Source of the DNA: Reyranella massiliensis 521
GTDB lineage: Bacteria; Pseudomonadota; Alphaproteobacteria; Reyranellales; Reyranellaceae
Length of the DNA: 64,000 nucleotides
Assembly (NCBI GenBank): GCA_945860205.1
Contig: CAMARK010000005.1
Coordinates: forward strand, 1-64,000
Reading direction: 5' to 3'
Shown here: positions 39,580-41,698 of the stretch, one piece after another
How the letters are laid out: the number at the start of each line of letters is the position of its first letter
Numbering within the stretch: position 1 is the stretch's first letter
The notes under the pieces: generated by a model
Seen by the model: the letters and a program-made list of their open reading frames with translations, nothing else
What the model was told of the DNA's origin: nothing
The model's database searches: none
Translations under genes and position numbers: made by a program

Positions 39580-39588
39580 GACCGCTGA

Positions 39589-39649
39589 GAGCGCGCCACT
39601 CCAGTGGCGCTCATCCTCATGAGAAGAGCGCCACTGGAGTCGCGCGCTC
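39589..39649. repeat. Long imperfect inverted repeat (hairpin) after the DapA-like gene
   Basis: Two 24-base arms (39589-39612 and 39626-39649) are reverse complements at 23 of 24 positions, around a 13-base loop. Each arm contains its own near-palindrome (GCCACTCCAGTGGC in the left arm), so the structure can also fold as a cruciform of two hairpins. It could be a strong terminator or a dispersed palindromic repeat. The next gene on this strand is 200 bases away. A 12-base piece of the same sequence (GCGCGCCACTCC) also occurs at 38598-38609 upstream of the DapA-like gene. Confidence 0.8.
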
Positions 39650-39659
39650 CCAGCAATGA

Positions 39660-39850: not shown

Positions 39851-40321
39851 ATGTCGATCATCGAAGCAGAACTTGAAGAGATGGAACCGCCGCTGCAGCC
39901 GCCATCAATTCGCGTGCGGCTGGCGGGGCCACGCGACTGTACGGCGTTGTGCGACCTGCTGGACAATCCGGCCGGCGCCCGCGAGCAGGTGCTGACCTGG
40001 CTGGAAAGCCCGGGCACGACGCTTCTGGTGGCTCAGAGCGAGCTCGGCATCCTGGGCGTCGCCGTTCTGATCACGCGCATCGTGCCGATGCCCGGCGCAG
40101 GCGCACACAAGGTCGTCGAGGTCGACAATCTCGTGGTGCGCGCCGACCTGCGTGGCCGCCGTATCGGCCGCCGCCTGCTCGCCGCCGCCGTCGAATGGTC
40201 GCGCCAGCGCCGCGCCGTCCAGGTGGAGGCCGTCGTCGGCGATCTCCACCGGGACGCTCGGCGCTTCTACGAGAGTTTCGGCTTCGCGGCGGCCAACGAT
40301 CGGCTCGTGCTGGCGGCGTGA
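39851..40321 (+). CDS. GNAT family N-acetyltransferase
   Basis: A 156-residue acetyltransferase. VRLAGPRDCTALCDLL is the start of the GNAT domain, VVEVDNLVVRADLRGRRIGRRLLAAA the acetyl-CoA binding A-motif (R/Q-x-x-G-x-G/A), and ARRFYESFGFAAAND the B-motif with the conserved FYESFGF. ATG 39851 lies 5 bases from GGAGG (39841-39845); the longer open frame upstream is not family-like. It is coupled to the next, truncated GNAT gene by TGATG, and the two are related copies. Confidence 0.85.
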   Translation: MSIIEAELEEMEPPLQPPSIRVRLAGPRDCTALCDLLDNPAGAREQVLTWLESPGTTLLVAQSELGILGVAVLITRIVPMPGAGAHKVVEVDNLVVRADLRGRRIGRRLLAAAVEWSRQRRAVQVEAVVGDLHRDARRFYESFGFAAANDRLVLAA

Positions 40322-40632
40322 TGTCTATCTTCGTGCGCCCGGCGACGCTCGGCGACTACCAGGCGCTCTGCGCCCTGTTCGAAGAGCTGGACGAATTCCA
40401 CCGCAAGGCGCGGCCGGACTTCTTCCGCTCCTTCGATGGGCCGGCGCGGAGCTGGGAGCAGGTCGGGCGTTGGCTCGCCGGCCCTGCTTCGACCGTGCTC
40501 GTGGCTGAGGAAGGGGACGAGCTCATCGGCCTCTCGCTGCTGTTGCCGCGACCGCAGCCGCCGTTCGCCGGCGCCGTGCCGCGCAAAGTGGTGGTGATCG
40601 ACAATCTCGTGGTCCGTGCGGATAGCCGGGAT
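40321..40632 (+). pseudogene. GNAT acetyltransferase truncated at a deletion junction
   Basis: The gene starts ATG 40321 and reads MSIFVRPATLGDYQALCALF up to KVVVIDNLVVRADSR (residue 103), just like the intact GNAT copy at 39851 up to the acetyl-CoA motif. At that point the frame changes. The expected GRGIGRxLL motif and the C-terminal roughly 50 residues (including the FYExxGF part) are missing, and the following bases encode the middle of a histidine phosphatase in another frame. The open frame continues out of register to 40767. The acetyl-CoA site is incomplete, so it is almost certainly inactive. Confidence 0.78.
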
Positions 40633-41158
40633 CGGTCGCGCGCTGAAAGCGGAGCTGGCCGGCGCCTGCGGGCCGACGGTCTTCCTGCGCAGTCCGCTGG
40701 GTCGGACCCGGGAAACTTCTTTGATCGTGGGTCGCGAGTTGGGGCTCGATCCCGCTGCATGGCGTGACGATCCGAGGTTGGCCGAGGTGGGTTTCGGTCG
40801 TTGGGAAGGCTCGACCTGGCAGGAGATCGAAGCCGTTCGCCCCGATGCGCACACCCAATGGCGCGCCGACCCGGCGGGATTCACGACGCCGGGGGGCGAG
40901 ACGTACTTCAGCCTGCGGCAGAGGTCCGCGGCCGTGCTGGCCGAGATCGCAGCCCTGGGGACGCGAACCGTCGCGGTCGGCCATGGCGTGAGCGGCGCCG
41001 TCTTGCGAGGGCTGCACCTCGGCCTCGACGCCCGCTCCACGATCGCGCTGGAAAAGCCACAGAAAGCCTTCTTTAGGCTGCTTTCGGGTCGTGAAGAGCG
41101 GATTGAGGCACACGGCGACGACCGTGCGAGCAATCGAGGCGGGCAGCGGGCAATGTGA
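40625..41158 (+). pseudogene. Histidine phosphatase family protein lacking its N-terminal RHG motif
   Basis: The frame from about 40625 reads GIGRALKAELAGACGPTVFL and RSPLGRTRETSLIVGRELGL, then LAEVGFGRWEGSTWQEIEA and VAVGHGVSGAVLRGLHLGL with the second catalytic His. The family should begin 35-40 residues earlier with an L(V)RHGET-type motif carrying the phosphate-accepting His. That part is absent because the truncated GNAT gene is fused here. A GTG at 40616 could start a shortened protein of 180 residues, but it would lack the nucleophilic His. Confidence 0.75.
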
Positions 41159-41209: not shown

Positions 41210-41698
41210 GTGGCAAAAAACAACGCGAAGCAGACGGCCGTGGCCAAGCCACCGTCGGTCCTGAAGCAGACGATGGCCAAGCCGATTTCCGGCTACACGG
41301 ATCCGGCGGCCCTGCGGACGTTGATGACGAACGCCAAGCGGCTGGGGCGCGACGATATTTGGCGCGAGGCCTTCCGGAAGCTGTGCTCGCTCGAGGGTGC
41401 GGAGCAGACCGAGCCGCTGCATCGCGATTTCTACGAGACGCTGGCAGCCTACGAGTATCTGTTGAGCCAGAAGAACGGCCGCGCCACCCGCGCCAGCCGG
41501 ACGCGCCTGAAACTCAAGAGCAAGGGAGTTATCCAGTGCCTGGAAGATTGGGTGACGAGCAAGACGCCGACCGAAGGCTATGAGCTGCTGATGGCCAACG
41601 GACTCGCTGAGATGACGGGCGAGAGTCTGGTGCTGAAATATCCGGAGCAATTCTCGGAAGCGGCGGTCGCCGCCGCCAAGGCGCGGATGGCGGCCTGA
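41210..41698 (+). CDS. Conserved-looking hypothetical protein
   Basis: A 162-residue protein starting at GTG 41210, with AGGAG at 41200-41204. The sequence is soluble and mainly helical: a basic N-terminus (AKNNAKQTAVAKPP), PISGYTDPAALRTLMTNAKRLGRDDIWREAFRKLCSL and YEYLLSQKNGRATRASRTRLKLKSKGVIQCLEDW, ending ESLVLKYPEQFSEAAVAAAKARM. I do not recognise a domain. The gene stands alone between the phosphatase remnant and the molybdenum hydroxylase pair. Confidence 0.68.
   Translation: MAKNNAKQTAVAKPPSVLKQTMAKPISGYTDPAALRTLMTNAKRLGRDDIWREAFRKLCSLEGAEQTEPLHRDFYETLAAYEYLLSQKNGRATRASRTRLKLKSKGVIQCLEDWVTSKTPTEGYELLMANGLAEMTGESLVLKYPEQFSEAAVAAAKARMAA

Follow-up and report, generated by a model that had tools for sequence, protein, structure and literature searches.

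This locus raises the question of how the reading frame of a GNAT acetyltransferase came to run into that of a histidine phosphatase, and whether either product could still be active. The window, which is the whole stretch of DNA analysed, comprises 64,000 nucleotides of Reyranella massiliensis 521, whose genome was assembled into 210 contigs. The features of the locus are collected in Table 1. The GNAT1 stop and the GNAT2 start overlap as TGATG. The GNAT2 frame opens with ATG at 40321, contains VVIDNLVVRADSRDRSRAESG and is GNAT-like as far as VVRAD(SRDR), where it departs from the family; the gene in G031, for example, goes on with RRDRGIGERLV. From 40625, a different frame reads AGIGRALKAEL (AGIGRALKAELAG) and remains open to its stop at 41156-41158, with GTG 40616 as a possible start. 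The two frames meet at 40625-40635, inside the interval 40600-40660 in which the original prediction had a GNAT frame meeting a phosphatase in another frame, and either GNAT2 or the phosphatase may be the parent gene of the GCCGGGATCGG stretch at this point. DOWN had no Pfam match at E 1 and no NCBIfam match at E 0.01. Upstream, an inverted repeat (39584-39654) sits between a dihydrodipicolinate-synthase-like gene and GNAT1, with 26-base arms at 39584-39609 and 39629-39654, of which 24 positions pair.

Table 1. Features of the locus in window coordinates.
Feature	Coordinates	Strand	Basis or remark
GNAT1, intact GNAT-family acetyltransferase	39851..40321	+	47.9 bits to PF00583 (cut-off 20.7)
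GNAT2 remnant, N-terminal part	40321..40624	+	101 codons ahead of the junction; alignment to G080
Junction of the probable deletion, GCCGGGATCGG	40625..40635	+	292 bp absent relative to G080 (L074:2040-2331)
GNAT2 reading frame, out-of-frame tail past the junction	40636..40767	+	Stop at 40765-40767
Histidine phosphatase (branch 1) remnant	40625..41158	+	Corresponds to residues 42-218 of the G080 protein; no RHG nucleophile motif
DOWN, conserved gene, family unassigned	41213..41698	+	98% identity to G080; served as locus marker

An RHG at the N-terminus is the nucleophile motif of histidine phosphatase branch 1, and R/Q-x-x-G-x-G/A is the acetyl-CoA motif of GNAT acetyltransferases. The chimeric GNAT frame scored 18.8 bits against Acetyltransf_1 (Pfam PF00583), under the cut-off of 20.7, and covered profile positions 12-74 of 116. 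It keeps the N-terminal part of the family and lacks the C-terminal third, the acetyl-CoA-binding motif included, so that neither the motif nor the C-terminal part of an active GNAT was found in the GNAT2 frame. The phosphatase remnant scored 81.8 bits against His_Phos_1 (PF00300), with a match starting at profile position 35 of 194. It keeps the part of the family after the RHG region, and the N-terminal RHG of an active branch 1 enzyme is absent. Judged from these motifs, the GNAT2 product should be inactive through loss of the acetyl-CoA-binding motif and the C-terminus, and the phosphatase remnant should be inactive through loss of the nucleophile. The window's genome retains GNAT1 and, elsewhere (C89), an intact phosphatase of this family, RHG included. 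GNAT1 had been described in the original prediction as an intact copy of the truncated gene. It is intact, but it is a paralogue and not a second copy of GNAT2: the two are about 43% identical and stand side by side in many relatives.

Both genes were whole in G080 (JAUXRT010000475.1), a Reyranella MAG that is 71% complete in 760 contigs. Its locus L074 was identical to L106 (JAUXRT010000475.1, Reyranella sp.). G080 has the order GNAT1, GNAT2 (162 aa), phosphatase (218 aa, with LLRHGETAW) and DOWN, with the neighbours known from the window; its phosphatase begins at 2209 and so overlaps the stop codon of GNAT2 (2210-2212). Against Pfam, the whole GNAT2 reached 70.4 bits over profile positions 13-116 and the whole phosphatase 139.8 bits from profile position 1. 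GNAT1 shared 93.6% amino acid identity with its G080 neighbour, and the GNAT2 remnant 83% with the whole G080 GNAT2 over 101 codons. In the alignment of window and G080, a block of 292 bp was absent from the window. It covers codons 106 to 162, the last, of GNAT2 together with phosphatase residues 1-41, the RHG among them. These are the parts that had been expected to be lost, namely the GNAT C-terminus and the phosphatase RHG. The overall length difference of 304 is made up of these 292 bp and an indel of 12 bp close to where GNAT2 begins. The aligner split the large gap in two around TA in the window, which was read as substitutions for GT in G080; alternatively, TA represents two added bases. 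Elsewhere in the window's genome, no match to the 292-bp block was found except 77% over 101 bases to the separate C89 phosphatase. RHG is present in both the G080 and the C89 phosphatase copies.

The comparison with relatives carrying both full genes had been proposed together with the original prediction, and G080 showed the 292-bp difference and, with it, supported a fusion made by deletion. Very probably, a single 292-bp deletion joined a truncated GNAT2 to a truncated phosphatase. The ancestor would have carried GNAT1, GNAT2, the phosphatase and DOWN in this order, with GNAT2 stop and phosphatase start overlapping as ATGA. The 292 bp would have dropped out between short, imperfect direct repeats with a GCCG core, one located just ahead of the GNAT acetyl-CoA motif and the other in the phosphatase after the RHG. 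This would have left the first two thirds of GNAT2 running out of frame into the phosphatase, of which the last four fifths remain. The presumed route is end joining or RecA-independent slippage.

The repeat was examined at both breakpoints. In GNAT2, the G080 sequence is TGCCGCAACCGG (C-R-N-R); in the phosphatase, where a different frame is used, it is TGCCGGGATCGG (A-G-I-G). The junction sequence of the window is AGCCGGGATCGG. The shared repeat is GCCG(GGATCGG), read as R-N/D-R directly ahead of the motif in GNAT2 and as A-G-I-G in the phosphatase. Across the two G080 breakpoints, the direct repeat is imperfect: 5 bp match exactly, or 9 of 12 when matched loosely, and one copy is left in the window. 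Among the 302,260 breakpoint pairs possible between both G080 genes, 1.0% had at least 5 bp and 0.14% at least 9 of 12. Because G019 and G031 carry GAT CGG or GAC CGG at the corresponding GNAT2 codons, the ancestral repeat may have reached 11 bp (GCCGGGATCGG), provided that the ancestor differed from G080. The microhomology of the original prediction needs correcting: the repeat at the junction is GCCG, at most GCCGGGATCGG, and not GIGRAL in both proteins. The G-I-G motif of GNAT2 follows past the repeat and was lost. TCGCGCGCTG, which had been counted as part of the microhomology, belongs to the phosphatase only; the lost GNAT motif was not matched to it in register. Motif-to-motif microhomology was rejected on the codons of GNAT2, or of the nearest GNAT, in 31 relatives; 32 loci were given, and G035 lacked coverage of the motif.

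A 161-base query over the junction found matches in 57 of the 65 genus genomes, at full length only in the window's own. Other genomes matched one side, e.g. 1-76 or 71-160, and in G080 the match was split into 1-69 and 49-160, separated by about 270 bases. Relatives with an identical fusion and a functional product, named beforehand as an observation that would count against the original prediction, did not turn up, with no fusion-spanning match in the 64 other genus genomes searched. DOWN was matched in 36 of the 65 genomes, in 31 at an identity of at least 63% and in five only at 35-38%. The loci counted (n = 31) were the 30 returned loci and that of G010. A phosphatase was located beside DOWN in four of them, as a remnant in the window, in full in G080 and G010 and in part, at a contig start, in G082. 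In the other 27, the DNA retrieved around DOWN gave no match to a phosphatase. The complete two-gene layout was whole in only two of the 31, G080 and G010, with fragmented assemblies of 760 and 770 contigs, respectively. GNAT2 was full or nearly so in 17 loci and full on a neighbouring contig in one more (G082), so a full GNAT2 is not peculiar to G080. It was shortened in two loci (the window and G035), and ten had no GNAT2 match of their own. G078 held a single GNAT that was matched by both GNAT queries.

Like GNAT2, the phosphatase is unevenly distributed over the genus. G062 carries a full GNAT2 without a phosphatase, and a search with the G080 phosphatase DNA revealed no remains in 13 GNAT-to-DOWN gaps of relatives lacking the gene. 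The sole match in these gaps was to the last phosphatase stretch, which is common to the DNA just ahead of DOWN; all else was no better than chance (E 0.078 or worse). Because of G062 and the empty gaps, the history of the phosphatase is patchy and the polarity of the event is judged from the truncation of both genes. Some lineages may have gained the phosphatase at the locus, or others may have lost it cleanly; this older history leaves the deletion itself untouched. The last phosphatase codons (G080 L074:2837-2865, window 41130-41158) coincide with G062 DNA that directly follows the GNAT2 stop and leads into DOWN. Since they do so, the phosphatase may perhaps have been inserted ahead of the DOWN leader, taking its tail from the leader.

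Such a distribution can also be read in the opposite direction, with the phosphatase-free relatives as ancestral and GNAT2 as the recipient of part of a phosphatase from another place. The 27 loci without a phosphatase match agree with this, as does the presence of a separate phosphatase in the genome whose similarity to the window starts right at the junction. An insertion was favoured while most two-sided relatives showed GNAT2 directly before DOWN, and it was dropped on the two full genes of G080. The locus holds a full phosphatase in G080 and G010 and most of one in G082, and the right flank of the window continues into DOWN as in G080. Identity of the window fragment was 88% with the locus copy of G080 versus 72% with the C89 copy of its own genome. 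In a phosphatase tree (n = 35; 30 places with loci, L157 standing for G082, and five others retrieved by position), the locus copies of window, G080 and G082 grouped together (99/97), apart from the C89 type. A single branch separated all four locus copies, weakly (90/51); the branch of the G010 copy was long, and the sequence of G082 covered under half of the columns. Because of the closer identity to G080 and the grouping in the tree, the fragment is best read as the remainder of the resident phosphatase and not as a recent import from C89. An insertion at the present junction is thus extremely improbable; it may apply to an earlier entry of the phosphatase into this region.

The junction could also be a misjoin in the assembly, given the 210 contigs of the window's genome and the fact that the contigs of G082 break within the locus phosphatase. 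In G082, the complete GNAT2 and the RHG-bearing part of the phosphatase lie on contig C340. Contig C45 starts inside the phosphatase and has a 215-bp gap relative to G080. The end of C340 (L155) and the start of C45 (L156) have exactly 55 bases in common, inside the phosphatase, a pattern suggestive of a fork in the assembly at which whole and deleted forms part. However, the window junction shares at most 11 bp, far less than this 55-base overlap, so a graph-induced misjoin is unlikely, although the assembler used for the window may differ. The lost block was also absent from the other contigs. An assembly artefact is accordingly given very little probability, and the deletion is retained.

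Other members of the genus show losses in the same region. The GNAT2 of G035 (L038:1638-1955) has a large in-frame internal deletion in which the acetyl-CoA motif region is gone and the C-terminal RRFYERFGF is kept. A second GNAT C-terminal piece follows GNAT2 in G019 (L028), and similar GNAT scraps were seen by eye in the gaps of G031 (L079), G018 (L088) and G079 (L086). The scraps give the impression of a longer tandem of GNAT genes that underwent erosion on several occasions. The stretch from GNAT1 to DOWN is a place of repeated gene loss, and the window event is therefore ordinary in kind. The right breakpoint of the window lies within about a dozen bases of the left breakpoint of the separate 215-bp deletion in G082 (near GATCGG, phosphatase codons 42-46). 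A stronger reading, in which the stretch is deletion-prone in Reyranella, as if intact and deleted forms occurred in one population in G082, is speculative and rather unlikely.

The remnants were compared with intact genes with respect to selection and age. Between the phosphatase remnant and G080, dN/dS was 0.156 over the first 160 codons and 0.211 over all 175, and an intact C89-type pair gave 0.169 in the matching region. The 15 amino acid differences from G080 in the 160-codon stretch were split into five on the window side, eight on the G080 side and two ambiguous. The GNAT2 remnant showed dN/dS of 0.25-0.31 versus three relatives, and the corresponding part of whole GNAT2 copies 0.18 (G080-G062) and 0.33 (G080-G031). 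Four neighbouring genes had dS of 0.23-0.31 versus G080. Measured from the window, dS of GNAT1 was 0.270 for G062 versus 0.309 for G080, and dS of the GNAT2 part was 0.318 versus 0.479. In both, G062 is as close to the window as G080 or closer, which complicates the deletion scenario. On the dN/dS values, the remnants show no clear extra decay of the sort expected of old dead genes, and the deletion is therefore probably recent relative to the split of window and G080.

The dN/dS figures of the phosphatase remnant leave either a recent deletion or a remnant that is still kept. The latter is compatible with the deletion: a product of 180 aa, starting from GTG 40616, would still be made and retained as a non-catalytic protein. 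The frame is open, the ratio of 0.156 over 160 codons resembles that of the intact C89-type pair, and the window side has not gathered the larger share of the differences. A recent deletion would give these figures too, however, and the ratio is higher over all 175 codons. The RHG is gone, and the fusion was spanned in no other genus genome searched. Retention of the remnant as a protein is considered quite improbable, and a recent deletion is favoured.

Since a relative keeps both genes whole, the locus is seen as an ordinary, probably recent gene loss, a new example without a new mechanism. It provides a clean case of a single short-repeat deletion removing two overlapping genes, with the prior state visible in a relative. 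It is also a warning for annotation: going by sequence, the 180-aa frame would not be an active phosphatase, nor the 148-aa frame an active GNAT. A literature search on Reyranella and pseudogene found nothing related, and the nearest counterparts come from other organisms. In Haloquadratum walsbyi, strain-specific deletions are described between direct repeats of 4-20 bp, with a single copy at the junction and repeats that are sometimes imperfect in the undeleted strain (PMC3119063). The window locus is alike in its short, imperfect repeats and the one copy left at the junction. It differs in that H. walsbyi is an archaeon with many indels between two strains, whereas a single event between species is seen here. 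For recA mutants of Deinococcus radiodurans, PMC8149714 reports RecA-independent deletions at repeats of 4-11 bp, likened to alternative end joining. Short direct repeats at the breakpoints are shared with the window deletion; the D. radiodurans deletions are large and arose in a laboratory recA mutant, whereas the mechanism at the window locus is presumed.
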